Assembly (NCBI RefSeq): GCF_014203225.1
Contig: NZ_JACHIO010000012.1
Location: forward strand, 152,880 to 216,879
Direction: 5' to 3'
Source of the DNA: Granulicella mallensis
GTDB taxonomy: Bacteria; Acidobacteriota; Terriglobia; Terriglobales; Acidobacteriaceae
DNA length: 64,000 bases
Shown here: positions 10,300-25,790 of the stretch, piece after piece
Numbering within the stretch: position 1 is the stretch's first letter
How the letters are laid out: each line of letters starts with the position of its first letter
The notes under the pieces: generated by a model
The model's database searches: none
The model's input: the letters and a program-made list of their open reading frames with translations, nothing else
What the model was told of the DNA's origin: nothing
Program-made: the position numbers and the translations under genes

Positions 10300-10414
10300 T
10301 AGAGCAAATCTCCTGTAGGTGTATAGCGAAGCCACGACCTTTATGGCCGTTTTTCCCCAGAAAAACGGTACTGCACGCCCGATTCAACTTCCCAGTAACA
10401 GGAGATTTGCTCTA
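10300..10414. repeat. 115-bp MITE-like element with perfect 17-bp terminal inverted repeats
   Basis: Both ends are TAGAGCAAATCTCCTGT and its exact complement (10300-10316 and 10398-10414). The 81-bp interior contains a further short palindrome (GGCCGTTTTTCCCCAGAAAAACGG at about 10343-10366). No coding capacity. The right terminal repeat supplies the TAG stop codon of the neighbouring flavoprotein gene (10412-10414), so insertion or evolution of this element has set the C-terminus of that protein. Resembles non-autonomous mobile or REP/BIME-type elements. Confidence 0.7.
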
Positions 10415-11809
10415 AGATGCAGCGGAAGAAAACAGAGCGATCAATCCCTCTGGAATCGTAGGATGTGCGAGGATAGCCTCTCGTAGCAAGGTGTAGGGCA
10501 TCCCTCCCAGCATGGCAATCTGCACGCAACCCATAATCTCGCCTGCTCCCACACCGAACGCCGCAAATCCGAGGATGCGGTCGCTGTCTCGCTCCACCAG
10601 GCACTTGAGGAATCCACGCGTTTCCATAAGGCTGCGCGCCCGCAGCACATGCGTCATCGGGACCTTGAAGAGACGGTAGGCGATCCCCCTGGCCCGGGCC
10701 TCCTTCTCGTTCATTCCAATGCGTGCGAATTCAGGGTCTGTAAAGAGACAGAAGGGTACCTGTCTCCCCGTAGTCACGTGGTTCCCGCCGAGCAGGTTGT
10801 CGCGAACAACGCGGAAGTCATCCTCGCTGATGTGGGTGAACTGCGGGCTGCCCGCGACCTCACCCACCGCCCACACTCCGGGCGCAGTCGTCTCCAGGCG
10901 CTCGTTTACTTTGATGTAGCCGCGCTCTGTCAGTTCCACTCCAACGAGGTCCAGCCCGATGTCTTTCGTGTTTGGCACACGTCCAGCCGCTACCAGAAGA
11001 TGCGTTCCCTCCAGCAACTTCTCCGTACCATTCTGCGAGAGAGTGACACGGACTGACTTTCCTGAGACTCCAGCGATGCTCTTCAACTTGGCATTCAAAA
11101 CCAGTTTGATGCCTTCGTCTTCGAGGAGGCTCTGCAATCCCTCCGTGGTGTCTTCATCCTCGCCATGAATCACACGCTCGTTGCGGTCTACGACCGTGAC
11201 CTGGCTGCCGAACCGGCGCATCGCCTGTGCGAACTCCAGCCCTACGTACCCGGCTCCGAGAATGATCAGGTGCTCGGGCACGACATCGAGCTCCAGAGCC
11301 TCAACATGGGTCAGCGGCTGTGCCACTGCCATCCCGGGAATGTTCTCGATAGCCGCGTGCGTCCCTGTTCCGATCACAATATTCTTGCCGGTCAGCAATC
11401 GCTTCGTTCCATCCGCCAGAGTTGCTTCCAGTATCCTGGGTTCCACAAATCTGCCGGATGCCATGATCAGCTCCGCGCCACTCTGCTTGTAGAGAGCGAG
11501 ATGCGTGTCTACCAATCCCTGGACCATCCTGCGCTTGCGATCTCTAACCGCCGGCATATTGACACGAAAGTTATCAACGCTGACGCCAAACTCGTCGCTG
11601 CGCCGAACGTTGTGCGCGATCTGCGCCGTATGAATCACATTCTTACTGGGAAGGCATGCGATGTTCGGGCAGGCTCCTCCAACATACTTGCGCTCGACCA
11701 CAGCGACGCGCTGGCCTTGCCCCGCAAAGGTCCAGGCCAGCAATTTCGCGCCTGCACCGCTACCAAGGATCAGAAGATCGTAAACTTCGGGTTGTGCTTG
11801 AAGATCCAT
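10412..11809 (-). CDS. FAD-dependent pyridine nucleotide-disulfide oxidoreductase (MerA/RclA-like)
   Basis: 465 residues from ATG 11809 (Shine-Dalgarno GGAGAA). FAD-binding Rossmann motif LGSGAGAKLLAW (15-26), redox-active pair C47-P-N-I-A-C52, NAD(P)H-binding motif ILGAGYVGLEFA in the middle, the second FAD motif (VWAVGEVAG) and the dimerisation-domain signature HPTIPEGL near the C-terminus with the His/Glu pair. This is the architecture of dihydrolipoamide dehydrogenase, mercuric reductase and RclA. There is no N-terminal MerR-type heavy-metal domain and no C-terminal vicinal Cys pair, so mercuric reduction is unlikely. The adjacent DUF417 gene upstream on the same strand mirrors the rclA/rclC association of enterobacteria, pointing to oxidant (reactive chlorine) resistance; this function is inferred. 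Confidence 0.82.
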   Translation of the reverse strand: MDLQAQPEVYDLLILGSGAGAKLLAWTFAGQGQRVAVVERKYVGGACPNIACLPSKNVIHTAQIAHNVRRSDEFGVSVDNFRVNMPAVRDRKRRMVQGLVDTHLALYKQSGAELIMASGRFVEPRILEATLADGTKRLLTGKNIVIGTGTHAAIENIPGMAVAQPLTHVEALELDVVPEHLIILGAGYVGLEFAQAMRRFGSQVTVVDRNERVIHGEDEDTTEGLQSLLEDEGIKLVLNAKLKSIAGVSGKSVRVTLSQNGTEKLLEGTHLLVAAGRVPNTKDIGLDLVGVELTERGYIKVNERLETTAPGVWAVGEVAGSPQFTHISEDDFRVVRDNLLGGNHVTTGRQVPFCLFTDPEFARIGMNEKEARARGIAYRLFKVPMTHVLRARSLMETRGFLKCLVERDSDRILGFAAFGVGAGEIMGCVQIAMLGGMPYTLLREAILAHPTIPEGLIALFSSAAS

Positions 11810-11944
11810 AGGTGATGTTCTCCGTTGTAGAGGATGCGTGTGAGGATCTCGGCCTCTTTGCATGCTTGTGCCATCAACGCCCTGTTGTCATCCCGAGCGC
11901 TCCAAACGGAGAGGAGCGTTGCAACGCTTCGTCCCGCTTCGCGA

Positions 11945-12508
11945 TTAGCTTTTATTCTCGGAGAGGATAGCCCTTTTGCCGAAATAGGTGACGAGGTAGA
12001 ACGCTACCCCAAGGGAGATGATGTCCTTGAAAAGAAACAAGCCCGTGAGACTCATATACCGTAGCCCTTTAACCACAATCGTTGCGCCCGGAGTAGTAAT
12101 GATCATCGTACTGGTGATGAAGAACATGACGCATGCGATGAGCCCACCCACGATACCGGCTTTAGGTTTCAAATAGCCTACGATCATCAAGGTGGCAGCG
12201 ATCCATTCGGTAAGGCCAATTAAATCAGAGCCGACATAAGGACCGAATACTTTAAAGTGCCAACTGATCAGCGGGCTATTTGAAACCAGCGGAATAATGC
12301 CTTCGGCACCGGGAGCCGTCATCTTGAAAGACCCCGCCCAAAGGAGCATCACGATCATGCCGATACTGGAAATCAGGAAAGGGATATTACGATCACTTAC
12401 CCAGGCAGCTACCTTGGTTAGGATGCTTTTGGCTTCCATTGAGGAGCCAGCAGAAACCAGGTCTTGATTCTCCGCGTTCATTGATTGTCCAGACGAGACC
12501 CGATCCAT
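11945..12508 (-). CDS. DUF417 (YkgB/RclC-like) inner-membrane protein
   Basis: 187 residues; ATG at 12508 with Shine-Dalgarno AAGGAG seven bases upstream. About four hydrophobic helices with the DUF417 pattern: WAGSFKMTAPGAEGI after the first helix, PYVGSDLIGLTEW, and a C-terminal PGAT...RYMSLTGLFLFKD block. In E. coli the family member RclC belongs to the reactive-chlorine-inducible rclABC operon together with the flavoprotein RclA, and a MerA/RclA-like gene follows here after 135 bp. It is preceded by a candidate sigma-54 promoter (12580-12596) and paired enhancer-like sites (12692-12737), shared with four other loci around a sigma-54 activator. Biochemical function of DUF417 is unknown. 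Confidence 0.85.
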   Translation of the reverse strand: MDRVSSGQSMNAENQDLVSAGSSMEAKSILTKVAAWVSDRNIPFLISSIGMIVMLLWAGSFKMTAPGAEGIIPLVSNSPLISWHFKVFGPYVGSDLIGLTEWIAATLMIVGYLKPKAGIVGGLIACVMFFITSTMIITTPGATIVVKGLRYMSLTGLFLFKDIISLGVAFYLVTYFGKRAILSENKS

Positions 12509-12579: not shown

Positions 12580-12596
12580 TGCAATCGAAAGACCAA
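12580..12596 (-). promoter_or_regulatory. Candidate sigma-54 promoter of the DUF417/flavoprotein genes
   Basis: Minus strand TTGGTCTTTCGATTGCA: -24 TTGG and -12 TTGCA with the required ten bases between GG and GC. The middle CAC is not conserved, so on its own it would be weak. It is supported by paired motifs starting 98 bp upstream with the same geometry as at four other promoters. A start near 12570 would give a leader of about 60 bases. Confidence 0.6.
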
Positions 12597-12691
12597 ACTC
12601 AGCGCATCCCCTTTTCAACCAGGTTATCGAGCTAAGTGATTCCTGCTCTGCAAAATCGATTGCAGCGTCATGATCAATCGCCGTCTCCAAC

Positions 12692-12737
12692 TGACGAAGC
12701 CACGACGGATCTTCGACAGTGACGGACTTTAGCTGCT
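12692..12737 (+). promoter_or_regulatory. Paired enhancer-like sites, pair E
   Basis: TGACGAAGCCACGACGGA (12692-12709) and TGACGGACTTTAGCTGCT (12720-12737) start exactly 28 bp apart. The first is a near copy of sites at 16768 and 22602. The second copy keeps only the TGACGGA half; it overlaps the stop codon of the ECF sigma gene (12729-12731). Confidence 0.6.
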
Positions 12738-13385
12738 TGATTCGTCGCAGTGCGTGAATACCTTCTTGAACCTCATCTCCTTAGAGGTGACGTTGATTGC
12801 CTTCAATTGTGGCGTCAGCAAGCTCTGCAGCATGATTCGAGCCCGGTGGGACATGATATTCACCAGCGAGGCATCCATCTCCAGAATCTGTGCCGTGTCA
12901 TTTAGATCGAGTTCCTCTACATCGCGCAGGAGAAACACTCGCTGGTAAATGTCAGGAAGCCTCCCAAAGCCATGCTGCAGCAGGCTTCTGATCTCCTCGT
13001 GCTCGACCACGTCAGAAAGAACTTCTTTCCAGTCGCTCAAAAGTGCCGGAGACATAAGCCACTCTTCGCTCTCAGGTTCTAGTAGAGAAGCGGTCTGGAT
13101 GATCGCCTGTTGCTGCAATCGGCTCTTTGCCTCATTGATCGCGATATGGATAAACCACGTCCTGAGTTTTCTATCGCCCCGGAAGGAGCCTAGATTCTGA
13201 AAGGCCCTAACGAACGTTTCCTGCGCTACGTCCTCAGCATCCTTATCGTTCTTCATGTAGGAAAGCGAAATCAGGTAGACGCTCCGCTCATAAGGGAGAA
13301 TTAACTGATGATAAAGCTGGGTATTTCCAGCCAAAATAACATCAATCAACTCCGACTCTCCTCCGCTTTGGACCATGGGGATCAT
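12729..13385 (-). CDS. ECF-type RNA polymerase sigma factor
   Basis: 218 residues. Region 2 is clear (LYHQLILPYERSVYLISLSY, then KNDKDAEDVAQETFVRAFQN and TWFIHIAINEAKSR), and region 4 follows (LPDIYQRVFLLRDVEELDLNDTA then the recognition helix region SLVNIMSHRARIMLQ). Such sigma factors direct transcription in response to envelope or oxidative signals and are normally held by an anti-sigma factor. No anti-sigma gene with a zinc-binding HXXXCXXC motif is recognised next to it: the 220 bp downstream contain regulatory sites and then the DUF417 gene. Control may therefore be transcriptional or through an unlinked partner. The substitution of the usual 'V+S+L+R' recognition helix by VNIMSHRA is in the expected place. 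Confidence 0.87.
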   Translation of the reverse strand: MIPMVQSGGESELIDVILAGNTQLYHQLILPYERSVYLISLSYMKNDKDAEDVAQETFVRAFQNLGSFRGDRKLRTWFIHIAINEAKSRLQQQAIIQTASLLEPESEEWLMSPALLSDWKEVLSDVVEHEEIRSLLQHGFGRLPDIYQRVFLLRDVEELDLNDTAQILEMDASLVNIMSHRARIMLQSLLTPQLKAINVTSKEMRFKKVFTHCDESSS

Positions 13386-13455
13386 TCTTTTGAAGCTGTT
13401 TCCAGCGATGTCTTAACCAAACGAGCCCGGCTGCTGTTGAGTCCTTCCAGGGCAG

Positions 13456-14073
13456 TCATACCGTTTTCAGAGAGATCGAGTCCGTGCTCTCACCTGGGGG
13501 CACTGGAGGTTCCGGCACCAGATAAAGCAGGACAGCGCAACACACCAGTGCGAAGCTGCATCGCGGAAACTCGAACCATACGAGCATCGCAGTGAGAAAG
13601 AGTCCGAGCGCAACGAGTGAGCGTATCCAGGCAAGCCTGCGAGTGCGAGGCGAAATCTCCTCAACTACTGCCCGGGTCAGGGCATGGTGCTCGAACTGAA
13701 GATAAGCCAACTCCACCAGAACAAATACCGCTGCATAAAGGAAGACAGGAACCGCAGCTATACGTGTGCTCGCAACCCATGCCGTTGCAAACGGCACCAG
13801 CGATACTGTGAACAAGTGCGCGAAATTAATCCAAATCAACCGCGGCGTCGACTCATCGGTAAAACGCAGCAGGTGATGGTGATTCGTCCAAACGATGGCG
13901 ATGAACAGGTAACTTACCAGGTAGCTCAGCGCAGTCGGCCACAATGGCAGAAGGCATGCGAAGGTGGGGTGCTCTGGCGGCCTCAGGTCCAGAACCATGA
14001 TCGTGATGATGACCGCAAACACCCCGTCTGAAAAGGTAGCCAGTCGTTCAATGTTCGCTTTTCGCGGAGACAT
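13456..14073 (-). CDS. TMEM175-family (DUF1211) potassium channel subunit
   Basis: About 205 residues from the second in-frame ATG (14073), preferred because GGGAGA lies just upstream; a start at 14088 would add five residues. The family signature RxxxFSD is present near the N-terminus (ERLATFSDGVFAVIITIMVLDL). Six hydrophobic segments follow, with a WTNHHH motif between helices 3 and 4, as in prokaryotic TMEM175 proteins, which form tetrameric K+ leak channels with a hydrophobic gate made of pore helix 1. The gene lies downstream of the SDR gene on the same strand (67 bp gap) and may be co-transcribed with it. Physiological role in bacteria is not settled. Confidence 0.85.
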   Translation of the reverse strand: MSPRKANIERLATFSDGVFAVIITIMVLDLRPPEHPTFACLLPLWPTALSYLVSYLFIAIVWTNHHHLLRFTDESTPRLIWINFAHLFTVSLVPFATAWVASTRIAAVPVFLYAAVFVLVELAYLQFEHHALTRAVVEEISPRTRRLAWIRSLVALGLFLTAMLVWFEFPRCSFALVCCAVLLYLVPEPPVPPGESTDSISLKTV

Positions 14074-14139
14074 AGGTTCTCCCGTCATGCTGGTTTAGCA
14101 AATAGCATTCGCGAACCAAAGCTGTACTGGGCTCCTGAT

Positions 14140-14913
14140 TCAGATGCCTTTGACTTCGCCGCCATCCATTCGTATAGAAGATCCCGTCATCCACTTCGCC
14201 GCCGGCGATACCAGATACGCCATCAGATCAGCGATCTCCTCTGGCTTGCCGAAACGGCTGATACCGGCTTCCTCTGGAAACTTCTTCAGCGCCTCTTCCA
14301 CGGTGAGGTTGTGCGCGGGAGCCCATTTCGCGAAGAACGATTGCCTGCGTCCGGTCATCACAGCACCTGGAACCACGCTGTTGACCTGCACTCCATCCTT
14401 GATCCCCTGCTCTGCAAACGCTTTTGCGAGGGCAATGATTGCAGCGTTGATCGCGGCGACCGCGGCGAACCCAGGCTTTGGGTCGAGAGCGGCGCTGCCG
14501 GAGATCAGGACGACAGATCCACCTGAGGCTTTCAACGCATCCCAGGCTCGTACCGTCAGGCGGCGTGCGCCGTGCAGCTTGAGTTCCAATCCGTCATTCC
14601 ACTGCGCATCCGTCATCTCAAACAGATCAATCTGGGGAACAGCTCCCGCAATATTCACCAGGGCGTCGATCCTGCCAAAGCGTTCCAATGTTCCCTTAAC
14701 GACCGTCTCTACTGCCTGCGGGTCTCGCAGGTCGAGCGCATAGATAAGCGACTCGGCGCCTGCGGCGCTGACATCGGCCGCAGCCTTTTGCAGTTCATCC
14801 TGATTTCTGGCGACGAGCACTACGGCTGAAAAATCACGCGCCAAACGCACTGCGGTAGCGCGGCCAATTCCCTGGCTTGCACCGGTAACAACAGCAACAG
14901 AGTTGGGCTTCAT
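14140..14913 (-). CDS. SDR-family protein lacking the usual catalytic Tyr and Lys
   Basis: 257 residues from ATG 14913 (Shine-Dalgarno AAAGGTG). The nucleotide-binding motif TGASQGIG (10-17), NIAG (87-90) and the structural C-terminal motif (SIRMDGG) define a classical short-chain dehydrogenase. The Ser of the active site is present in the segment LISGSAALDP. Where YxxxK should stand, the sequence reads VAAIN: Val152 and Asn156 replace the catalytic Tyr and Lys. The fold and cofactor site therefore look intact but the standard chemistry does not. It is the last gene of a putative operon with two alpha/beta hydrolases under a sigma-54 promoter. It could be a cofactor-binding regulator, a divergent enzyme or a structural partner. 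Confidence 0.85.
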   Translation of the reverse strand: MKPNSVAVVTGASQGIGRATAVRLARDFSAVVLVARNQDELQKAAADVSAAGAESLIYALDLRDPQAVETVVKGTLERFGRIDALVNIAGAVPQIDLFEMTDAQWNDGLELKLHGARRLTVRAWDALKASGGSVVLISGSAALDPKPGFAAVAAINAAIIALAKAFAEQGIKDGVQVNSVVPGAVMTGRRQSFFAKWAPAHNLTVEEALKKFPEEAGISRFGKPEEIADLMAYLVSPAAKWMTGSSIRMDGGEVKGI

Positions 14914-15002
14914 AAGCACCTTTCTTCGTCGACACGAGTGTCGTTGAGCACGTTCCATGTTTCTAACGAAGAGGAGGTGCGCCCCTCCTCTTCATTAGCG
15001 AT

Positions 15003-15704
15003 TTACGAGGCGAGCGCTCCACGCGCAGCTTCCAGAATCACCTCGACCACAAGGTACGGAGCTGTGAGCATGGGAGAGTGATCCACTTTATGCGACCAGA
15101 TCTTGGCATTCATACGATTTGCCATGTACCGCTGAGTCTCAGGAAGAATCATGCGGTCTTCTTCCGCAATCAGGAACCACGAGGGCTTCGTCTTCCATGC
15201 GGGTGCAGGAACTTTCTCCTGAATGCACTTCACAGAGATAGGCCTCTGTACTGCAGACGCAATCGTCGTTTGATCCGCAGATGCGTTGTGTGCCACGGCG
15301 TTGCTGAAGCCTTCTTCCGGCATCCAGATAAAGCCATGCTCATCGGGTGCGAGTTGCGGAGCTTTGGAATGTGGAGCAGCGCGATAAAACACATCCGCGA
15401 CCGTCTCCCCCTCATCAGGCGCCAGGGCCGCCACATACACGAGCGACTTGACTCGATCGTCAGACGGGCCAGCGATCACAGCCCCTCCATACGCGTGACC
15501 AACCAGAACAACAGGTCCCGTGGTTCTCTCGATTGCGCGCTGGAGGGCAGCGATGTCATCCGTGAGCGATGTAAGTGGAATCGTTGCGCATGTGACCTTC
15601 AGACCCTGTCGCTTCAGGGGCAGAATGACGTTCTGCCAGCAGGACCCGTCAGCCCATGCCCCATGAACGAGTACAACCGTTACATTTTCAGAAAAAGAAT
15701 TCAT
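15003..15704 (-). CDS. Alpha/beta-hydrolase-fold protein with Ala in place of the nucleophile
   Basis: 233 residues. The N-terminal strand and oxyanion loop (TVVLVHGAWADGSCW, residues 9-23) are typical of the salicylate/methyl-ester esterase-like group. The nucleophile elbow reads VGHAYGG, so position 71 is Ala (codon GCG) where Ser (one-base change) is expected. His is retained in DHSPM near the C-terminus and an acid in AEEDRM. The protein therefore probably cannot use a serine nucleophile; relatives with GHAYGG exist to my knowledge, so this is likely an evolved variant and not an error. Gene order: 20 bp after the upstream hydrolase and 89 bp before the SDR gene, so one operon is likely. 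Confidence 0.82.
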   Translation of the reverse strand: MNSFSENVTVVLVHGAWADGSCWQNVILPLKRQGLKVTCATIPLTSLTDDIAALQRAIERTTGPVVLVGHAYGGAVIAGPSDDRVKSLVYVAALAPDEGETVADVFYRAAPHSKAPQLAPDEHGFIWMPEEGFSNAVAHNASADQTTIASAVQRPISVKCIQEKVPAPAWKTKPSWFLIAEEDRMILPETQRYMANRMNAKIWSHKVDHSPMLTAPYLVVEVILEAARGALAS

Positions 15705-15724
15705 CGTGATTCCCTGCCGCCTTT

Positions 15725-16606
15725 CTATCGCGAGATGCCGTTCGACCCCAGAAACTCTTTGATCGCAGCGGCAATTTCGACGGAGTGTGTCTCTGTAGCA
15801 AAATGCCCTGTATCCAGAAACTGGACCTTCGCGTTCGGCAGATCCTTGCGGAAGGCCTCGGCCCCTGCCGGAATGAAGAAGGGATCGTTCTTGCCCCAGA
15901 TTGCCAGCAGCGGCGGCTTCGACTTCCGAAGATACTCTTGGAATTTGGGATAAAGCTTCACGTTCGACGCGTAGTCAAGGAACAGATCGAGCTGAATATC
16001 CGTATTCCCCGGTCTTTCCAGCAAAGCAGCGTCCAAAGTGTAAGACTCGGGCGGCACGCTCTCGGGATTTGCGACACCGTGCGTGTACTGCCAGCGAGTT
16101 CCATCAAAATTCAAGATGTTCTTCCGGATCACTTCCCGGTTCTCTGCTGTCGGCGTAGCCCAATACGTTCTGATCGGCCCCCAGGCATCGCCCAATCCTT
16201 CTTCGTAGGCGTTACCGTTCTGCGAGACGATCGCGGTAATTCGCTCGGGGCGGCTCATGGCCAGACGGAGGCCTGTAGGCGCTCCATAGTCGAAGATGTA
16301 GATCGCGTAGCGAGTGAGGCCAAGCGCGTCCGTGAAGGCCTGCACCGTACCGGCCAGCGCGTCGAATGAGTATGTGTAGTTTCGCTTTTCGGGTACTTCC
16401 GTAAACCCAAATCCAGGCAGATCCGGCGCGATCACCCTGTAGCTGTCCGCAAGACGAGAGATGAGATCGCGGAACATGAAGGATGATGTCGGAAACCCAT
16501 GCAGCAAGAGCAACACAGGCGCGGCTGCATCGCCGGCTTCACGGTAGAAGACTTGGATTCCGTCCGCTTCAACTTTATGCACGGATGTCACAGGGACTTG
16601 ACTCAT
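15725..16606 (-). CDS. Epoxide hydrolase/haloalkane dehalogenase-like alpha/beta hydrolase
   Basis: 293 residues from ATG 16606, with GGAGAG six bases upstream (an ATG five codons earlier lacks this). Motifs: oxyanion loop LLLLHGFPTSS (32-42), DLPGFG (62-67), nucleophile elbow IFDYGAP in which Asp106 takes the nucleophile place, IWGKNDPFF near the C-terminus with an acid, and TGHFATE with the base His. An aspartate nucleophile is the mark of epoxide hydrolases and haloalkane dehalogenases, which form an ester intermediate with the substrate carbon. First gene of a probable three-gene operon with a sigma-54 promoter 50-60 bp upstream. Suggests detoxification of an electrophilic epoxide or halide; the substrate is unknown. 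Confidence 0.87.
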   Translation of the reverse strand: MSQVPVTSVHKVEADGIQVFYREAGDAAAPVLLLLHGFPTSSFMFRDLISRLADSYRVIAPDLPGFGFTEVPEKRNYTYSFDALAGTVQAFTDALGLTRYAIYIFDYGAPTGLRLAMSRPERITAIVSQNGNAYEEGLGDAWGPIRTYWATPTAENREVIRKNILNFDGTRWQYTHGVANPESVPPESYTLDAALLERPGNTDIQLDLFLDYASNVKLYPKFQEYLRKSKPPLLAIWGKNDPFFIPAGAEAFRKDLPNAKVQFLDTGHFATETHSVEIAAAIKEFLGSNGISR

Positions 16607-16665
16607 AAGATCTCTCCTCACTACTGCTGGTCATCGTTAACACCACGAGCCGCACCCTATTACGA

Positions 16666-16682
16666 TGCAAGCAAACAGCCAA
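16666..16682 (-). promoter_or_regulatory. Sigma-54 promoter of the hydrolase operon
   Basis: Minus strand TTGGCTGTTTGCTTGCA matches TTGGC at -24 and TTGCA at -12 with ten bases between GG and GC. Transcription would begin near 16655, about 50 bases before the ATG at 16606. Paired upstream sites begin 88 bp away. Confidence 0.75.
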
Positions 16683-16707
16683 TCTCAAATTGAGATTGGC
16701 TGTTTGC
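16671..16707. promoter_or_regulatory. 37-bp perfect palindrome overlapping the sigma-54 promoter
   Basis: Two 18-bp arms (GCAAACAGCCAATCTCAA and its exact complement) around one central A. The left half includes the -24 element and spacer of the promoter at 16666-16682. It could be a terminator for the aldolase gene upstream on the same strand or a repressor operator; lack of a U-tract and the promoter overlap favour an operator or a dual role. Confidence 0.6.
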
Positions 16708-16767
16708 TAAGTCGTTTGAGTACAGCAAGATCCCCCTATACAAACGCCGAGGGGTCCTGCCTCAAAC

Positions 16768-16813
16768 TGACGAACTCGCGACGGACTTCCAACACTGACG
16801 AGATTCGGTCGTG
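16768..16813 (+). promoter_or_regulatory. Paired enhancer-like sites, pair A
   Basis: TGACGAACTCGCGACGGA (16768-16785) and TGACGAGATTCGGTCGTG (16796-16813), 28 bp apart, on the strand opposite to the promoter. The proximal one starts 88 bp upstream of the -24 GG. Confidence 0.7.
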
Positions 16814-16852
16814 ACGTCGTCACAGTACCTGATCTGCCGCAGATTCCGGCGG

Positions 16853-17722
16853 CTACTGCACTTGATTGAATAGCCGCAACCGGGCAAGAACAACCTGCTT
16901 AACAGCTTCTTCCGCTACCGGTAAGAGCTTGTAGGGAACAACCTCTCGCGGCTGCTTCGCAAAAGCGTCTTCCAGGCCGTGCCGCCACGCAACGCGCAGT
17001 TCGGTGTTGATGTGAATGATATTGATCCCGGCCTTGATCGCTTCCTGCAGGTCACGATCCTCCGTACCGGAGCCACCATGCAAGGTCAGGAAGCTTCCGG
17101 AGGCACGCTTGATCTCGCGTATCCGGGGAATGTCGAGGTGCTTCTTCACATCTCCCTTCAACATGCTCTGCAACATGCCGTGCGCGTTCCCGACCGCAGG
17201 AGCGAGGATATCGACTCCGGTGCTTTCGACATACTGCCTGGCTTCTTCTGGTGTCGTAAGCTCGCTCGAGAGATCAGCCATGGATTCATGAATCTCAGAT
17301 CCTGTTCCAATGTTTCCAATCTCTCCCTCTATCAGGATCATCGGATTGATTGACTTCAACGCCTCCACCGCCTGCTTTGTCTGTTTGATATTTTCCTCAA
17401 ACGGCAGTGCGGACAGGTCGAACACAATGGAATCAAATCCGGCTTTGGCTGCTGCGATGGCGCTGTCCAGGGAATGCGTATGGTCGGCATTGAGGAAGAT
17501 CGGGGCACCCTGTTCCTCACGAAGGCTCTTCACCAGGGCCGCGACTTGAGCGACCCCCACAAAGGCTCGCTCGCCTTCCGATAAACCGACGACTACCGGA
17601 ACCTTTAGTTCCTGCGCAGCCGAAAATACAGCCTTCAGCAAAACCCAATCGGAGATGTTGAAGTGTCCAATGGCCGTCCCATTGCTTTGCGCTGCTGCTA
17701 ACGATGTTCTTAGGTTGTCCAT
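16853..17722 (-). CDS. Class II fructose-bisphosphate/tagatose-bisphosphate aldolase family
   Basis: 289 residues, the normal length. Zn and catalytic residues are visible: NADHTH with Asp80 and His81, GEIGNIG at 133-139, His181 in GNAHG and His215 in LHGGSGT; NTELR follows as in GatY/KbaY/FbaA. The motif is NADH rather than the usual HLDH of canonical glycolytic enzymes, so it belongs to a side branch and may cleave another ketose-1-phosphate. It has its own sigma-54 promoter at 17806-17822 with paired enhancer-like sites, unlike a housekeeping glycolytic gene. This suggests an induced role in metabolising a triose, aldehyde or sugar released under stress. Confidence 0.87.
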   Translation of the reverse strand: MDNLRTSLAAAQSNGTAIGHFNISDWVLLKAVFSAAQELKVPVVVGLSEGERAFVGVAQVAALVKSLREEQGAPIFLNADHTHSLDSAIAAAKAGFDSIVFDLSALPFEENIKQTKQAVEALKSINPMILIEGEIGNIGTGSEIHESMADLSSELTTPEEARQYVESTGVDILAPAVGNAHGMLQSMLKGDVKKHLDIPRIREIKRASGSFLTLHGGSGTEDRDLQEAIKAGINIIHINTELRVAWRHGLEDAFAKQPREVVPYKLLPVAEEAVKQVVLARLRLFNQVQ

Positions 17723-17805
17723 GATTCCTCCACTGATTTATTAGCTATTGAATGATCCACTCAGACGAAGCAAGTCTTGAGGTATCCCGCATGAGTAGAT
17801 AGAAA
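17723..17805 (-). promoter_or_regulatory. Leader of the aldolase gene
   Basis: About 70 bases between the predicted sigma-54 start site (near 17795) and the ATG at 17722; a GGAGGAATC Shine-Dalgarno stands directly before the start. Confidence 0.5.
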
Positions 17806-17822
17806 AGCAATCGACGGGCCAT
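17806..17822 (-). promoter_or_regulatory. Sigma-54 promoter of the aldolase gene
   Basis: Minus strand ATGGCCCGTCGATTGCT: GG and GC separated by ten bases, with TGGC-CG and TTGCT (T is allowed in the last position). Only one position in the conserved block (A to C) deviates. Paired sites start 101 bp upstream. Confidence 0.75.
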
Positions 17823-17920
17823 CGAGAAGACCTGTAATGAGAAGAAGAACTCTCTGCTATAAGCCTCTTCCTGCTAGTGATTAGATCACGCAGTCAGGCG
17901 GGCAGAGTTAAGGCTCTGGG

Positions 17921-17966
17921 TGACGAACAGATGACTAGAGCCCGACACTGACGGGATTCGGACGTA
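17921..17966 (+). promoter_or_regulatory. Paired enhancer-like sites, pair B
   Basis: TGACGAACAGATGACTAG (17921-17938) and TGACGGGATTCGGACGTA (17949-17966), again 28 bp apart and opposite to the promoter strand. Confidence 0.7.
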
Positions 17967-18077
17967 GCGACCGTCGCAGAATACTATTTTGCCTTCCTAT
18001 ATTTATTCACGGCCCAGATAGCGCATCCACAATTTCGCCGCAGAACCGCGCAAAACATCTAAGTAGCATATCTGTCC

Positions 18078-18485
18078 TCAAGTGCAAGGATCAGGCGCCT
18101 GATTTGGATCCAGAACTTTCGCTATCGTTTCGAGCAGGTGTCCGATAGGCATGCCCTTGTCGATGCACCTCACAAATAGAACGCGCTCTTCATGTGAAAG
18201 TGTATTCACGCCTCCTGAGAGCAATACAATTGGAAACCTTGCACCCAATGCCCGCATGCGCAGAAAGAGCTCTCGTCCATTTAATCCCGGCATCTGAAAG
18301 TCCAGAATCGCGAGATCGAACCTGGAGAGGTCGCAGCGAAGAGCCGCAAGCGGACAATGATAGAGAACAACGGAGTAACCGTGTTCTTTGAGCTTCTCTC
18401 CGCGCATGGTGGCACCTAGAATCTCATCATCCACGCACAGAATGTGATACCTGCGTAATTCGGGAGCCTCATCTCTCAAAACCAC
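18078..18485 (-). CDS. Stand-alone response-regulator receiver protein
   Basis: 135 residues, a single REC domain without an output domain. Acidic pocket Asp19-Asp20 (CVDDE), phospho-acceptor Asp62 (AILDFQMPGLNG), the switch Ser in LLSGG at about 90 and the conserved Lys110 (CIDKGMP). Typical of Spo0F/CheY-like or acidobacterial 'response regulator' adaptors. It ends 5' of no other gene and starts 152 bp after the egtB gene on the same strand, so it may be a distal member of that transcript. The cognate kinase is not in the window's vicinity; the nearest histidine kinase is the unrelated KdpD-like gene at 40-41 kb. Confidence 0.85.
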   Translation of the reverse strand: MVLRDEAPELRRYHILCVDDEILGATMRGEKLKEHGYSVVLYHCPLAALRCDLSRFDLAILDFQMPGLNGRELFLRMRALGARFPIVLLSGGVNTLSHEERVLFVRCIDKGMPIGHLLETIAKVLDPNQAPDPCT

Positions 18486-18637
18486 ACATGCTCCTTAAAC
18501 ATCCAGGGGGCGAGTGATCGAGGCCTCGTAATTAGACCACGCTGAACTTCGATGATAAGTTCTGAGTGCTTACCGTTAGCCGATGCGCACTCCAGATCGA
18601 GTACTTGAGTGTACTTAGTCATTGCGAATGAAGACCT

Positions 18638-19900
18638 TCAAATTGCCAGACGTATGCCCGTGAACTGCCAGCGGGTCGCCGGATGAAAGAAATTGCGATA
18701 GGTTGCACGCACATGATCCGCGGGGGTGACGCACGACCCTCCCCGCAAGATCATCTGGTTAGACATAAACTTGCCGTTGTATTCTCCGAGTGCACCAGGA
18801 AGGGGTTTATACCCCGGATAGCCCATGTAGGGGCTGGCTGTCCATTCCCAGCAGTCTCCGAATAGTTGCTCCATGCCGGTGCCAGTCGCCACAGCAGGAT
18901 GCAGCCTTCCGGTATCCAGCAGATTTCCATGCCGGCGTTCCCTGCTCGCAATCGATTCCCACTCTGCCTCTGTTGGAAGCCGGCAGGCACGCCAACGCGC
19001 AAAGGCGTCTGCCTCGAAGAAGCTAACGTGACAGACGGGAGTATCAAGCAACTCCGCAAGGCCATGCCATCCCTTGAGCGTGAAGACGCGCCAACCTGCC
19101 GCATCGCCGGCGTCTCGCTCCCAATAGAGCGGTGCTTTCCAGGCCCCTCGCGCTACAGCTTCCCACCCCTCAGACAGCCAGAGCGAAGGGCGCGTATAAG
19201 CCTCATCAGCCATGAACTCTAAATACTCACGGCAGGTTACCTTACGGTTCGCAATCAGGAATGGGGCCAGGTAAACCTTATGGCACGGAGTCTCGTTGTC
19301 AAAACAAAAGTCCAGAGGCTCGGCAACGTTCAGCGTATACCCGATCTCGGTAATCCCACCCTCAAAATCAAGCCATCTGAGTTGAGGACTCGGCTGAGGA
19401 GCTTCTTTCGGCAGCGCCGCAGATCCGTAGGAGAGACGTAGGGGATTCGAAAAAAAGGCATGCTTGATATCCGTCAGGGCAAGTTCCTGATGCTGTTGTT
19501 CGTGATTCAGCCCCAGCATGATCCGCCTTGATACTTCTGGGTCGATGGAACACGCAAACAATCTCTCCATCTCCTGATCGACATGGGCACGGAAAGCCAG
19601 AACCTCATCGAGCGACGGCCGAGAAAACGAGGCTCGCAACTTCTTCTCGGGAATCTCTTCACCAAGCGCGAGGTAATAACTATTGAAGAGGCGATGAAAC
19701 TCTTCGCGAAAGGGCCTGTAGTCGCAGAGATACGGCCGTAAAACAAAGGTCTCGAAGAACCAGGTGGTATGCGCCTGGTGCCATTTGACCGGACTGGCCT
19801 CCGGACACGACTGCACCATTTGATCCTCCGCGGACAAAGGAGCAACGAGAGAGCGCGTCATCGATCGCACAGCTTGATATTTTGACTGGAGAGTAGACAT
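18638..19900 (-). CDS. egtB: EgtB-like non-haem iron sulfoxide synthase
   Basis: 420 residues, the normal length for EgtB. N-terminal DinB-like helical domain with the iron ligands in HTTWFFE (His44) and HEQQHQE (His133 and His137), then a C-terminal formylglycine-generating-enzyme-like (C-type lectin) domain ending RNFFHPATRWQFTGIRLA. EgtB joins a cysteine or gamma-glutamylcysteine to hercynine using O2, the key step in ergothioneine formation. The partner methyltransferase EgtD, often adjacent, is not found within the window, so the substrate depends on an unlinked gene. A consensus-perfect sigma-54 promoter is 93-109 bp upstream of the ATG, placing this enzyme under the adjacent GAF-domain activator. 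Ergothioneine is known as an oxidant scavenger. Confidence 0.88.
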   Translation of the reverse strand: MSTLQSKYQAVRSMTRSLVAPLSAEDQMVQSCPEASPVKWHQAHTTWFFETFVLRPYLCDYRPFREEFHRLFNSYYLALGEEIPEKKLRASFSRPSLDEVLAFRAHVDQEMERLFACSIDPEVSRRIMLGLNHEQQHQELALTDIKHAFFSNPLRLSYGSAALPKEAPQPSPQLRWLDFEGGITEIGYTLNVAEPLDFCFDNETPCHKVYLAPFLIANRKVTCREYLEFMADEAYTRPSLWLSEGWEAVARGAWKAPLYWERDAGDAAGWRVFTLKGWHGLAELLDTPVCHVSFFEADAFARWRACRLPTEAEWESIASRERRHGNLLDTGRLHPAVATGTGMEQLFGDCWEWTASPYMGYPGYKPLPGALGEYNGKFMSNQMILRGGSCVTPADHVRATYRNFFHPATRWQFTGIRLAI

Positions 19901-19992
19901 GAGGGGTAATCATCCGCTGAGGCTCTGATTGCAGACGGCATGTCCGCCACAAACTGGACAGTACATTCCGAATGTCGACACAGCTTCTGTGC

Positions 19993-20009
19993 TGCAAGCA
20001 ACGTGCCAA
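19993..20009 (-). promoter_or_regulatory. Consensus-perfect sigma-54 promoter of egtB
   Basis: Minus strand TTGGCACGTTGCTTGCA equals TTGGCACG-N4-TTGCA at every conserved base. The predicted start is near 19982, 80 bases before the ATG. Paired sites start exactly 100 bp upstream of the -24 GG. Confidence 0.9.
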
Positions 20010-20106
20010 AAAAAATGGAACTCTATCGTCCAGCGAAACCGAGGTATAAGTTATGTATTTGCAATGCTATATCGTCACCAACGACGTGAAGCACACGGGT
20101 CATCCC

Positions 20107-20152
20107 TGACGAAATCAGGACTGATTTTCGCCACTGACGGGTTTCCGTCGCA
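20107..20152 (+). promoter_or_regulatory. Paired enhancer-like sites, pair C
   Basis: TGACGAAATCAGGACTGA (20107-20124) and TGACGGGTTTCCGTCGCA (20135-20152), 28 bp apart. They lie between the stop of the activator gene and the egtB promoter. Confidence 0.7.
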
Positions 20153-20187
20153 AGACTTGGCACGTGATGCAGCCTAAGAGAAGTCGA

Positions 20188-22344
20188 TCACTTCGAGCGT
20201 AGAGGACTCCCAACACTCTTCTGTTCAGCGGACATGGCACGACTTATCCCGAGTTTCTGCATTTTAGAAACCAGGGTTGTTCGCTTCATGCCCAATCGTT
20301 CCGCAGCGCCCTTTGGGCCACCGACAACCCCATCGCTGGCATCCAGCGCCCGGAGGATATGATCCCGCTCCAGATCCTCGAGACCTGTCAACGGTGGGTT
20401 CGATCCTTTATGAGTACTGAACGGTTCTAACTCCGAAATGGGAGCTCGCAAAACCGTATGGGGCGAGAGAATCATTGCCCGCTCGATAAAATTCTGCAAC
20501 TCGCGAACGTTACCAGGCCAGCGATACCGTACCAGGGCATCCATCGTTTCGGAAGGAATCTCCTCGATTCTCTTGTCCATTCGGCGCGCATAGAATTCCA
20601 CAAAATGCTGGACCAGGTTCGGAATATCTTCCGTTCGCTGTCGCAAGGCTGGAATATGAATCGGAAATACTTTTAACCGATAGTAAAGATCCTCGCGAAA
20701 CGTGCCCTGCTTGACCATGGCGGGAAGATCGCGGTGTGTCGCTGCTATGAGACGGACGTCGACTTTATGAGTGTGATTGCTGCCGAGCCGCTCAAACTCC
20801 CGTTCCTGCAGGACTCGTAACAACTTCGCTTGAAGTTCCAAGGGAATGTCGCCGACCTCATCCAGGAAGAGGGTGCCTTTATTCGCAAGCTCAAAGCGCC
20901 CGGTCTTCTGCGCAATCGCTCCGGTGAACGCTCCTTTTTCATGCCCGAATAACTCGCTTTCGAGAAGTCCAAGTGGGATTGCAGCGCAGTTCAACTTAAC
21001 AAAGGACCGGCTCCGGCGGCCGCTCAAATTATGGATCGCGCGCGCGACCAGCTCTTTGCCGGTTCCTGTCTCGCCCATGATCAGCACGCTTGAATCCGTC
21101 GGCGCCACGATGGATACCAGGTCCAGCGCGGTCTTCAACGCAGGGCTATCTCCGACAATCTCTCCAAACTGGGCGCGAATCTCTTCTTCAAGATAAAGCC
21201 TATGTTTCGCCTCTTTGTCTCGATCCCTTATCGCTTTCTCATAATCCAACGCGTTCTCGACAGCTATGGCCACCTGGCCCGCGACCTGTTCAAGAAAGGT
21301 AATTTCCACCTGGTCGAAGGCTCTCTCTGAGCGGTTTAGAGCACTCAACACCCCAATCACACCATTCTTCGTGAGCAATGGAATGCTGCATCCCGACACC
21401 AGGCCTTCGTCCATCAAGCTCTGATAGATCCGTTGAGCTGCGCTGTTACCGGAACGTTCAGCATCGGAGCGAACGGACTCCAGGTTGTCAAAGTATTGAG
21501 TCTTGCCGGTCCGCACGACCTTGCTACAGAAGGAACCATCGTTAGGGATGATAGCCCCGTCACGCAGAGAGCCTCGCGCGCCAGGGTTGTACAGTGGAGT
21601 TACGCGCAATCCCCCGTTATCGCTATCGGGTAGAAGCAAAGCACAAAAATCACACCGGGTTACTCGCAACAAATCCGTAGACAACACCTCCACCAAACGA
21701 CGCATGTCTAACTTCGATGCCATGCTGTTAGTAATCTCCAGAAGCAGATGCAACCGGTTCCGTTCAAGCCGCAATTGCTCTTCATTCAGGTGGCGCTCAA
21801 TCGCAATTCCAGCAATGTGGCTGGCGTTTTCGATCAACTTCAGATCAGCTTCGTCAGGGCTGCGTACTTCCCGATAATGAATGGCGAACGTTCCAAGGGT
21901 TTGCCCCTCGCTGGTAAATAACGGCAGCGACCAGACCGCACGAATTCCGAACGGCAGAAGCCGATGCCGATAATGATCCCAGACAGGATCTTCGAGGATA
22001 TCGCTCACATAGACTGGCTGCTTTCGGTAAACGGCGGTGCCGCAGGACCCGCCCTGGGGGCCAATCAACATGGACCCTGTCCCCTCGATAAATCCGGGAA
22101 GACCTGGCGCCGCGGCGCAATGAAGATGTCTTCCATCATCGTCCGGAAGCCAGATCGTGCACAATGTGCCGTCCCCGCGAGATTCGACCAATTGAGCGAT
22201 GATCGTGAGCACCTCGGGCAGCGGAGATCCGGCAAGAATCAACTTTAAAATGTTGAGTACAGATTCACTGGAAAAAAGACCCATTTCGCCGAGTTCATCC
22301 TTTGCGTTCAATGCCGGCCGGGAGGATTGTGTCGTTGACTCCAT
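20188..22344 (-). CDS. Sigma-54-dependent activator with two GAF domains (FhlA/NorR-type)
   Basis: 718 residues. Two GAF domains (about 40-185 and 205-365) precede an AAA+ domain with Walker A GETGTGKE (424-431), the sigma-54 contact loop GAFTGA (471-476) and Walker B LFLDEVGD (492-499). The C-terminal Fis-type helix-turn-helix covers about 660-705 (GPKGAAERLGMKRTTL). This is the layout of FhlA. GAF domains sense small molecules or, in NorR, nitric oxide through iron; the first GAF has Cys62 and Cys101 and the second Cys231, Cys234 and Cys273, candidates for redox sensing. Five sigma-54 promoters with a shared paired motif surround the gene, so it very likely controls them. Its own promoter shows no such motif. 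Confidence 0.93.
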   Translation of the reverse strand: MESTTQSSRPALNAKDELGEMGLFSSESVLNILKLILAGSPLPEVLTIIAQLVESRGDGTLCTIWLPDDDGRHLHCAAAPGLPGFIEGTGSMLIGPQGGSCGTAVYRKQPVYVSDILEDPVWDHYRHRLLPFGIRAVWSLPLFTSEGQTLGTFAIHYREVRSPDEADLKLIENASHIAGIAIERHLNEEQLRLERNRLHLLLEITNSMASKLDMRRLVEVLSTDLLRVTRCDFCALLLPDSDNGGLRVTPLYNPGARGSLRDGAIIPNDGSFCSKVVRTGKTQYFDNLESVRSDAERSGNSAAQRIYQSLMDEGLVSGCSIPLLTKNGVIGVLSALNRSERAFDQVEITFLEQVAGQVAIAVENALDYEKAIRDRDKEAKHRLYLEEEIRAQFGEIVGDSPALKTALDLVSIVAPTDSSVLIMGETGTGKELVARAIHNLSGRRSRSFVKLNCAAIPLGLLESELFGHEKGAFTGAIAQKTGRFELANKGTLFLDEVGDIPLELQAKLLRVLQEREFERLGSNHTHKVDVRLIAATHRDLPAMVKQGTFREDLYYRLKVFPIHIPALRQRTEDIPNLVQHFVEFYARRMDKRIEEIPSETMDALVRYRWPGNVRELQNFIERAMILSPHTVLRAPISELEPFSTHKGSNPPLTGLEDLERDHILRALDASDGVVGGPKGAAERLGMKRTTLVSKMQKLGISRAMSAEQKSVGSPLRSK

Positions 22345-22556
22345 TAGCTCTCCTTTCTCAACGCCACTCCGGAGCAGAAGAATGTCCCACTTGTGCGGAG
22401 GGTTTGATATTTCTATATAGTGTCAGATTGCACGATGAAACTCGTCAACACTCGCTTCGTCAGTGATGCTTCGTGCGGGCAATCCCCAGCATACGCTGCG
22501 ATCCCCGGAACAACCACTCGACCGGCTGAGCCATAGACCATCTCCGCGACGAGGGT
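22345..22556. other. Divergent intergenic region, activator side
   Basis: Holds the promoter of the activator gene (no -24/-12 element seen on the minus strand, so presumably sigma-70). No gene. Confidence 0.4.
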
Positions 22557-22602
22557 CGCGACCAATCTTCGCCAGTGTTGGCTATCCGTCACGTCTTCGT
22601 CA
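22557..22602 (-). promoter_or_regulatory. Paired enhancer-like sites, pair D
   Basis: On the minus strand TGACGAAGACGTGACGGA (22602-22585) and TGGCGAAGATTGGTCGCG (22574-22557), 28 bp apart. They stand opposite to the plus-strand aquaporin promoter, the same relative orientation as the other pairs; the proximal site starts 99 bp from the -24 GG. Confidence 0.7.
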
Positions 22603-22698
22603 CTCCGACCGCCGGCTCTCCGTGCCTCTTACAGAAGGAATCCCCGTCAGTTTAGAGCGTTTTCCCCATCGTCCCTCCTGAGTAAAGGCGTTTTGTTT

Positions 22699-22715
22699 TT
22701 GGCATTCCAGATGCA
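22699..22715 (+). promoter_or_regulatory. Sigma-54 promoter of the aquaporin gene
   Basis: TTGGCATTCCAGATGCA: TTGGCA at -24 and TGCA at -12 with ten bases between GG and GC. The predicted start near 22726 fits the coding start at 22781. Confidence 0.8.
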
Positions 22716-22780
22716 CGACCTACCTCATCTCGCCATGGAGCATGAGAGCAGCCATCCCATGCAGGGTGACTGGAAAACAA

Positions 22781-23695
22781 ATGGCTAAAGACATAACCGG
22801 CGCGGAAATGGAGGACTACCCGCAAATACTCCGCCGGGGTGACACATTGAATGCAGCCGACAGCCTGCGCTTGCACTGGCCCGAATACCTGATGGAAGCT
22901 ACCGGGCTAGCCTTATATATGTTCTTTGTCTGCATATTTGCAGCTCTGCTACAACATCCTGCTTCTCCGGTTCGACATATGATTGCCAGTCCTGTCTTAC
23001 GTCGAGCCCTCATGGGATTGGGCGTAGGAACGATGCTGGCTGCGATTATCATGACGCCGTGGGGCAAGCAGTCCGGTGGTCATTTCAATCCAGCCATCAC
23101 CTTTACCTTTTATCGGCTGGGGAAGGTGAAGTTCTGGGATGCACTGTTTTACGCCATGGCACAGTTCTTTGGCGCGATGAGTGGTGTCTCAATCGCCGCC
23201 TACGTATTGAGAAGTATCGTGCAGAACGATACGATCCACTATGCAGTAACAGCGCCGGGCGTCTACGGAAGTCTGGTCGCATTTATTGCCGAACTGGTGA
23301 TCTCGTTTACGCTGATGAGCACGATCCTGTTCGTATCCAATCACAAATCACTGGCACAATTTACACCCTATTTTGTGGGGGTACTGTACGCAACGTACAT
23401 AACCTTCGAAACACCGTTGTCAGGGATGAGCATGAACCCCGCGCGAACGTTTGGGTCCGCATCCTATATCAGCTACTGGCACGCGCTTTGGATCTACTTC
23501 ATCGCCCCTACACTAGGAATGTTGGCCGGAGCCAAGCTCTTCTTACTAGCTCGCGGGGGAGCCGCTCCCTGCTGTGCAAAGCTACATCACGCCAATAACA
23601 AACGCTGTATCTTCATCTGCGGATATGAAACAGCGAAGATCAGGAGTAACTCCATGCAATCCCGCAACTCATTGTCTCCGGAAAGTCGGCTATAA
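22781..23695 (+). CDS. Aquaporin / MIP-family channel
   Basis: About 304 residues from MAKDITG (ATG 22781); an ATG at 22742 would add 13 residues without a spaced ribosome-binding site. Both pore motifs are present: GGHFNPAITF and SMNPARTF, the latter with the selectivity-filter Arg. Six membrane helices are visible, and a longer polar N-terminus and a Cys/His-containing C-terminal tail (CCAKLHH, about 265) are unusual. Members conduct water, glycerol or hydrogen peroxide. The sigma-54 promoter and shared enhancer motif place it with egtB and the RclA/RclC-like genes, so peroxide or small-solute traffic during stress is a reasonable guess, not proven. Confidence 0.87.
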   Translation: MAKDITGAEMEDYPQILRRGDTLNAADSLRLHWPEYLMEATGLALYMFFVCIFAALLQHPASPVRHMIASPVLRRALMGLGVGTMLAAIIMTPWGKQSGGHFNPAITFTFYRLGKVKFWDALFYAMAQFFGAMSGVSIAAYVLRSIVQNDTIHYAVTAPGVYGSLVAFIAELVISFTLMSTILFVSNHKSLAQFTPYFVGVLYATYITFETPLSGMSMNPARTFGSASYISYWHALWIYFIAPTLGMLAGAKLFLLARGGAAPCCAKLHHANNKRCIFICGYETAKIRSNSMQSRNSLSPESRL

Positions 23696-24538: not shown

Positions 24539-24934
24539 TTAGGCGTTTCCTTTAATGAGTCTCGATCCGTGGTCACAGGTCATGCTGAACGAGTGAGAAC
24601 CTACATTGAGAGTGATGGAATAAGGCAGATCATCCACGGCCTCTTTCACAGTTCCGAGCCAATAGACGATTGCGGTGCCGTCATAGGTGTAGCGCTTTAC
24701 TTCACAGATATCCTGGGGAACATTGATCGCTGTAATGTCCGCATAGGCTTCGCATTCCATCGGTGTAACCGTCCAAAGGATCTGGTCACCCTTTTTAACT
24801 GCTGTTGCCAGTTTGTGAGTTCCCTGATTCAGGGAGCCTCCGCGGCGGTTGTCATCGTACAGGTAGCAATTCCCTGCAAGCGTGTTATCGTCGAGTGCGC
24901 CGACAACATCAATGATGGATTTCACGTTGATCAT
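24539..24934 (-). CDS. AidA/PixA inclusion-body family protein, paralogue 3
   Basis: 131 residues, the shortest paralogue and close to a single AidA domain. Motifs: IIDVVGAL at the N-terminus, CYLYDDNRRGGSLNQGTHKL (about 23-42), ILWTVTPME, VYWLGTV and a C-terminal YSITLNVGSHSFSM beta hairpin. The Shine-Dalgarno AAGGAG is eight bases before the ATG. It is 25 bp downstream of paralogue 2 and abuts paralogue 4. No signal peptide, so cytoplasmic. Function unknown beyond family membership. Confidence 0.8.
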   Translation of the reverse strand: MINVKSIIDVVGALDDNTLAGNCYLYDDNRRGGSLNQGTHKLATAVKKGDQILWTVTPMECEAYADITAINVPQDICEVKRYTYDGTAIVYWLGTVKEAVDDLPYSITLNVGSHSFSMTCDHGSRLIKGNA

Positions 24935-24959
24935 ATTTAGTCTCCTTTGTTGCCATCAC

Positions 24960-25751: not shown

Positions 25752-25790
25752 AGATTCCTCTTTTAGGGTTCGTTGTGCTAGTAGCGGATA

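Follow-up and report, generated by a model that had tools for sequence, protein, structure and literature searches.

The subject of this analysis is a stretch of 64,000 nucleotides from Granulicella mallensis (assembly GCF_014203225.1, contig NZ_JACHIO010000012.1, positions 152,880 to 216,879 of the forward strand; hereafter the window), in which five copies of a composite site of approximately 53 bp each precede a sigma-54-type −24/−12 promoter element, close to a gene for an activator with the domain order GAF-GAF-AAA+-Fis. The site pattern is far beyond chance and larger than described in an earlier note on this DNA. We consider it likely that the composite site is the enhancer of the neighbouring activator and that together they drive a sigma-54 regulon with a predicted role in protecting the cell from reactive chlorine or similar thiol oxidants; binding of the activator to the site, sigma-54 transcription from the elements and the inducing signal are what we infer here from sequence. 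Taken together, the sites, activator and target genes are read as a sigma-54 regulon that is new and belongs to the Granulicella family. Sigma-54 regulons with an upstream activator are a known arrangement, and the novelty within it lies in the fixed composite site and the predicted function.

The earlier note had reported five −24/−12 elements, each accompanied by two 18-mers of the type TGACGRR-N5-GWC starting 28 bp apart, and all five elements and all five pairs were located at the places it gave. The 18-mer consensus as such fared less well: it matches eight of the ten half-arrays without mismatch and shows no genome-wide enrichment (92 matches versus 119 for a reversed control), and the evidence therefore sits in the pair. 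All five pairs in the window match YCGTCA-N13-GTC-N6-TCGTCA (promoter sense) with at most one mismatch, and a version of this pattern, tightened after the sites had been seen, has seven matches in the host genome versus none for the reversed pattern at the same stringency. In 149 other genomes it gave four matches (three genomes) versus one for the reversed control, and a match in genome G096 was taken as chance. Allowing two mismatches yielded 27 host matches versus 17 in the control, mostly noise, and was rejected. Host matches were retained if they combined at most one mismatch with the conserved core; those at C19:82018 and C32:29952 were dropped, their flanks being without the remainder of the profile described below.

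When the host copies were aligned with those found close to activator orthologs, a conserved block of ~53–56 bp emerged. The paired 18-mers are thus real but form parts of one ~53-bp composite, in which CAGTGTYGG is conserved between the pair and a further conserved GAC lies ~12 bp upstream of it. A sequence-only profile (R1) built from 18 sites identified seven copies in the 6.47-Mb host genome (E 5e-15 to 5e-11), five in the window and one each on contigs C19 and C1, the next match, reverse-strand self-matches aside, having an E of 0.10 (150 of 1532 first-look candidates scored). To avoid circularity, a hold-out profile was made from 11 sites of other genomes only; those seven host copies again came out on top (E 6e-13 to 9e-6), followed by a match at another place with an E of 0.65 (150 of 2339 first-look candidates scored). 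The E-values of these site searches are rough. The outcome named in the earlier note as fatal to its proposal, namely 28-bp pairs being equally common at random places, was not observed, given the seven matches against none and the agreement of both profiles on the same seven sites.

Coordinates of the window sites are profile columns 1–60, and the gap to the promoter runs from the site's final A to the T of TGG. Site 1 (12692..12751, reverse strand; E 2.8e-11, hold-out E 9.3e-6) lies ahead of a DUF417-flavoprotein gene pair, 96 bp from the element TGGTCTTTCGATTGCA (12580..12595, first T at 12595). Site 2 (16768..16827, reverse strand; E 1.7e-14, hold-out E 2.6e-11) precedes a hydrolase-hydrolase-oxidoreductase group and belongs to a short-distance class, its element TGGCTGTTTGCTTGCA (16666..16681, first T at 16681) being 86 bp away. 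Site 3 (17921..17980, reverse strand; E 1.3e-12, hold-out E 3.5e-10) stands ahead of a class II aldolase gene at 99 bp from TGGCCCGTCGATTGCT (17806..17821, first T at 17821), and site 4 (20107..20166, reverse strand; E 6.2e-12, hold-out E 2.5e-7) ahead of egtB at 98 bp from TGGCACGTTGCTTGCA (19993..20008, first T at 20008). The fifth site (22543..22602, forward strand; E 3.0e-14, hold-out E 1.9e-10) occupies the intergenic region between the activator and aquaporin genes and is directed at the latter, with TGGCATTCCAGATGCA (22700..22715, forward strand, first T at 22700) following at 97 bp. The elements of sites 1 to 4 are on the reverse strand, as are the sites themselves. The five gaps reproduce the earlier description of four similar distances and one shorter by about a helical turn. 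The 3′ end of a gene for an extracytoplasmic function (ECF) sigma factor (window 12729–13385) overlaps site 1, and in relatives ECF-like genes (BLAST) are found close to sites at loci L136, L147 and L148.

The association with promoters extends well beyond the host. A geometry set of 47 stretches, comprising the window and 46 loci picked for sites or activator orthologs and not for promoters, contains 76 distinct composite sites, 75 of them with enough downstream sequence. A TGG-N9-TGC element occurs 85–104 bp downstream of 69 of these 75 sites, against 0.69 expected from background, and at none of the 76 mirror positions (upstream, opposite strand). The association persists among sites absent from profile building (53/57) and after thinning to <80% identity (53/59). 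That the pattern is a chance resemblance picked by eye, as the unenriched single 18-mer might suggest, is a proposition to which we attach practically no weight, because the hold-out profile and the mirror control exclude chance; the seven-to-none count in the host and the promoter link point the same way.

Distances fall into two classes one helical turn apart, with nine sites at 85–88 bp and 60 at 94–104 bp, so that the spacing seen in the window holds in relatives. Six of the ten short-distance units listed precede Hyd1, the first hydrolase of the group behind site 2, or a truncated Hyd1 paralog, and one such unit is near a contig end. The interior of the site is equally regular: when the halves were scored separately, 72 of 73 pairs had one offset and one an offset of +1, with none elsewhere within ±12 bp. 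Self-complementarity of the profile peaks at position 33 (0.854; the second-best centre has 0.784). On the reverse strand, too, the profile has weak matches at all five window sites (E 1e-5 to 0.05). GAC/GTC-type triplets lie near positions 7, 18 and 29 and near 35, 46 and 57, ~11 bp apart within each arm. The dyad notwithstanding, promoters are found on just one flank of the site. A match resembling a binding site of integration host factor (IHF) was present in just three of 70 site-promoter linkers, and IHF bending as a general feature of the linkers was consequently rejected.

The host copies are clustered, five of the seven within ~10 kb, as would be expected if the sites were a non-regulatory conserved sequence, such as a recent duplication or a mobile repeat with a promoter-like end. 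In pairwise comparisons of the seven host units, however, linkers have a mean identity of only 28% (maximum 39%) while the sites stay at 59%, which makes recent duplication unlikely. Two helical gap classes, a one-sided promoter and the recurrence of copies ahead of the same gene families in different species likewise argue against such an origin, and we regard it as very improbable.

The activator gene (20188..22344, reverse strand) encodes 718 amino acids arranged as two GAF stretches, a Sigma54_activat AAA+ domain (PF00158, 247 bits) and a Fis-type helix-turn-helix (HTH; PF02954, 33.1 bits, cut-off 22). The GAFTGA loop claimed for this regulator was read in the translation and is invariant in all 27 aligned rows (the query and one relative each being represented twice); the host has one rpoN match (PF04552, 194 bits). 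Three cysteines of the first GAF domain (GAF1), C62, C76 and C101, are kept in all 27 rows, down to 66% identity. They are also kept in 121 of 121 closer sequences, comprising the query and the best 120 of 7924 homologs, each with 74% identity or more, among which C234 is found in 110 and C273 in 103. The activator clade looks restricted to the host's family within the sample taken: no activator match at E ≤1e-165 other than the host's own was found in a phylum-wide sample of 347 genomes with three candidates scored per genome.

Short paralogs of the activator were observed in several genomes as open frames of 346–406 amino acids (G307:C408:5714-6763, G160:C26:30547-31560, G280:C115:6427-7440, G274:C676:3893-4939 and G072:C1:3739548-3740537). 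They comprise the AAA+ and HTH parts only, 75–81% identical, and resemble sensor-less versions with a PspF-like layout; those in G307, G160, G280 and G274, not that in G072, adjoin a composite site. In Edaphobacter aggregans (L043:9601-13000) the activator occurs as two tandem copies, each recovered as two tblastn pieces, the first copy spanning residues 358–708 only.

A survey of 398 genomes from the host's family, with 13 candidates per genome scored for the site and two for the protein, showed that the site goes together with the activator. Orthologs are at least 63% identical to the activator, the remaining matches at most 55%. At E ≤1e-4, a threshold picked after the lists had been seen, the site is present in 25 of 28 ortholog-bearing genomes and in two of 370 others (Fisher p 4e-34); at E ≤0.01 the counts are 28/28 and 12/370. 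Ten of the 370 ortholog-free genomes have weak R1 matches (E 4.8e-4 to 6.5e-3), which were taken as chance, against ~4 expected at 0.01. Removing the seven genomes that supplied the profile (G000, G386, G040, G350, G160, G159 and G215, all among the 25) leaves the site in 18 of 21 ortholog-bearing genomes, and setting aside three partial or C-terminal-only orthologs (G312, G307 and G072) gives 23/25 versus 4/373. In the host's genus three sampled genomes carry both. One exception, G168, has a 73%-identical activator fragment (residues 427–584; G168:C33:231348-232458) ~600 bp from its lone site, and the regulon seems to be decaying there.

A different protein, be it another enhancer-binding protein, a response regulator or an ECF-linked factor, might bind the site, the activator gene being a mere neighbour. 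The family genomes do encode other AAA+ activators of up to 55% identity, and ECF-sigma-like genes adjoin some sites. Against this stand the ability of ortholog presence to predict the site, the mostly site-free genomes that have only more distant activators, and the activator remnant beside the lone site of G168, so that we consider a different binder improbable. The earlier note's proposal of a compact sigma-54 regulon around the activator with GAF domains is supported by this co-occurrence, by the promoter spacing kept in relatives and by the recurrence of target families; the regulon is not only local, with further copies on C19 and C1.

The targets indicate what the regulon may do, a question on which the earlier note had made no proposal. 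Site 4 precedes EgtB of ergothioneine synthesis (18638..19900, reverse strand; TIGR03440, 530 bits, cut-off 360), two EgtD matches above cut-off being present elsewhere in the host genome, and downstream of egtB is a 135-amino-acid open reading frame (ORF; 18078..18485, reverse strand) with no NCBIfam match at 1e-10, whose product looks receiver-like by eye, a tentative label. The aldolase behind site 3 (16853..17722, reverse strand) is a class II ketose-bisphosphate aldolase family protein (TIGR00167, 219 bits, cut-off 215.6). Behind site 2 are Hyd1 (15725..16621, reverse strand), a haloalkane-dehalogenase-like alpha/beta hydrolase with an Asp-type elbow (FDYGAPTG) scoring 104 bits against PRK03592, below the cut-off of 241; Hyd2 (15003..15704, reverse strand), which has the alpha/beta hydrolase fold; and as third gene an oxidoreductase of the short-chain dehydrogenase/reductase (SDR) type (14140..14958, reverse strand). 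Alpha/beta hydrolases usually have HSY where Hyd2 has HAY, and Hyd2 is probably not a serine hydrolase because this Ala at the nucleophile position (GHAYGG) is found in 25 of 25 distinct cluster members.

Site 1 leads to a DUF417 membrane protein of the RclC/RcrB family (11945..12508, reverse strand; PF04224, 79.7 bits) and an RclA/MerA-like flavoprotein disulfide reductase (10412..11863, reverse strand; PRK06370, 389 bits, below cut-off) with a CxxxxC active-site pair, which occurs in 12 of the 13 sequences of its cluster. The aquaporin-family (MIP) channel behind site 5 (22742..23695, forward strand) scores 108 bits against PF00230. Outside the window, the C19 copy (G000:C19:107135-107195; L013, L047) stands ahead of a gene for a haloalkane dehalogenase (NF002938, 403 bits, over the cut-off of 241). 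The copy on C1 (G000:C1:346113-346645; L014, L048) precedes a truncated Hyd1 paralog (115-amino-acid ORF) in which the middle part seems absent, and a 291-amino-acid Hyd2 paralog is also behind the site.

The same gene families are targeted in relatives. The first ORFs behind the 69 promoter-bearing sites, tallied by an automatic ORF script and BLAST clusters with close relatives such as G158 included, encode Hyd1 (19), EgtB (12), DUF417 (7), RclA-like flavoprotein (5), DM13 (4), aquaporin (3), and two each of aldolase, DUF427, a BD-FAE-type hydrolase and an ECF-like group (c21), with eleven others occurring once each. The order Hyd1-Hyd2-SDR recurs among the units, often followed by DUF417 or the flavoprotein. 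These recurrent targets suggest that the regulon protects from reactive chlorine or some other thiol oxidant. Because EgtB, dehalogenase-type enzymes and relatives of RclA and RclC are combined, the theme would be oxidant and electrophile defence, for which reactive chlorine is our most specific guess.

The genes most suggestive of chlorine have counterparts in the RclR-rclABC system of Escherichia coli, which likewise combines RclA with a DUF417 protein and whose regulator RclR is of the AraC family and not a sigma-54 activator. As described in excerpts of three papers, rclABC is induced by hypochlorous acid (HOCl) or hypothiocyanous acid (HOSCN) (PMC12096828, PMC9600549, PMC7527725); excerpts of two of them present RclA as an HOSCN reductase, and RclC and RcrB, both of the DUF417 family, as needed for E. 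coli resistance to HOSCN or HOCl (PMC12096828, PMC9600549), and RclA proper is reported there almost only from epithelial colonisers (PMC7527725). The pair here, in contrast, belongs to a sigma-54-type regulon with egtB and hydrolases, and given the missed Rcl cut-offs and the reported range of RclA the two proteins are relatives of RclA and RclC, not the same proteins.

Layout and model scores point to another possible signal. FhlA shares the GAF-GAF-AAA+-Fis order and provides the best NCBIfam score of the activator (NF011958, 510.5 bits, below the cut-off of 830), and among the best 120 of its 7924 homologs many bear the JGI name "formate hydrogenlyase transcriptional activator". Excerpts of a sigma-54 survey list FhlA, induced by formate, with the activators that govern transport and metabolism of (di-)carboxylates (PMC3162934). 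The same regulon and activator could then respond to a small organic ligand bound by the GAF domains, such as a formate-like acid, an aromatic compound or an aldehyde, with catabolic or aldehyde-detoxifying targets, and alpha/beta hydrolases, SDR, class II aldolase, a VOC protein and a quinone-reductase-like protein are indeed among the targets. The FhlA-type name nevertheless looks wrong here, because 510 bits fall short of 830 and the annotated targets include no recognisable hydrogenase or formate gene. In 24 of the 69 units the first ORF encodes EgtB, DUF417 or the RclA-like reductase, none of which looks catabolic, and the conserved GAF1 cysteines suit thiol chemistry, so that an organic ligand appears to us the less likely signal, at a level still deserving attention.

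Several observations weigh against the oxidant-responsive enhancer-activator system favoured here. The chlorine assignment draws on family resemblance and on the company the genes keep, as the cut-offs of the specific models were missed: the DUF417 protein has 58.8 bits against the RclC model NF040476 (cut-off 275) and the flavoprotein 343 bits against the RclA model NF040477 (cut-off 740), and the two best PDB chains for the latter are near-equal (6kgy, which we take to be RclA, 255 bits; a dihydrolipoyl dehydrogenase, 252 bits). The cysteine conservation in the 121 sequences is weak evidence since all are so similar, and C101 is also Cys in one of two distant regulators aligned there. Absences in the family survey are not certain because few candidates were scored per genome, and G320 has a site with neither an ortholog nor a promoter at the site. 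The strict promoter is missing at six of 75 sites, one of which (L118) has a relaxed GG-N10-GC at 100 bp. The host C19 unit, another of the six, has its −24/−12 element at 42 bp, outside both distance classes; it may have lost ~55 bp of linker, since the G160 unit (L128), ahead of a protein of the same cluster as the C19 target, has its element at 98 bp. The dyad is imperfect, the left outer triplet being GAC at positions 6–8 in 37 of 70 sites and position 35 being GTC/GTT in 47 and GAC in 11, and the scheme of six triplets and three dimers is a model.

In that model, activator dimers would occupy the six GAC/GTC-type triplets of the near-dyad site. The site would thereby serve as a template that fixes the register in which the AAA+ ring assembles, and the short, helically phased linker would present the ring to the sigma-54 polymerase without a long or IHF-bent loop. 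GAF1 would keep the AAA+ domain off until modified by an oxidant or electrophile, perhaps at the conserved C62, C76 and C101. Once induced, the target genes would clear the oxidant or whatever it gives rise to by means of the flavoprotein reductase, the DUF417 membrane protein, the synthesis of ergothioneine, the dehalogenase-type hydrolases and the NAD(P)H oxidoreductases. The full version, a ruler enhancer (a 53-bp near-palindrome on which three dimers become a hexamer, with a two-phase linker) coupled to a cysteine-based GAF sensor of reactive chlorine or thiol oxidants, as the first sigma-54-controlled reactive-chlorine defence and with dehalogenases and ergothioneine synthesis in one regulon, is offered as a tentative proposal that we think rather unlikely to hold in all its parts.

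The fixed dimer array was proposed by analogy with NorR, the nitric oxide (NO)-responsive activator of E. coli, whose three enhancer sites scaffold its oligomer. NorR shares the GAF-AAA+-Fis layout; it has a single GAF domain and the operator GT-N7-AC, whereas the activator here has two GAF domains and scores 363 bits against the NorR model NF003451 (cut-off 476). No NO-detoxification gene was recognised among the annotated targets. The three sites upstream of norVW are described in excerpts as essential and as scaffolding higher-order oligomers (PMC2941729), in place of which there is here one compact 53-bp composite with near-invariant spacing. Enhancers of the NtrC/NifA type likewise combine an upstream site at a similar distance with a bacterial enhancer-binding protein and an AAA+ ring, in excerpts of one paper ~100–150 bp before the promoter with looping that is often IHF-aided (PMC7057263). 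The distance here is near-fixed and phased by one turn, and IHF-like matches are rare in the linkers.

Classical sigma-54 enhancers tolerate variable distance, and ring assembly on DNA and enhancer-promoter geometry have mostly been studied at single promoters. The ~70 natural promoters of one family, with the same internal spacing and two phased distances, constitute a data set for this geometry question, and the analysis provides a predicted function for a regulator clade often named after formate hydrogenlyase. If correct, DUF417/RclA-type oxidant defence and ergothioneine synthesis would be tied to sigma-54 outside enteric bacteria, and reactive-chlorine defence would be a new job for sigma-54. 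No description of the regulon, or of sigma-54 control of RclA/RclC-type genes or egtB, was found in the open-licence PubMed Central papers searched. The accessible parts of two sigma-54 surveys lack the words Acidobacteriota, ergothioneine, Granulicella, Terriglobus and Edaphobacter (PMC12316311) and Acidobacteria, Acidobacterium and Solibacter (PMC3162934).

Past the aquaporin gene, the window contains several small proteins (23933–26297) that seemingly form one family and by eye resemble AidA/inclusion-body proteins.

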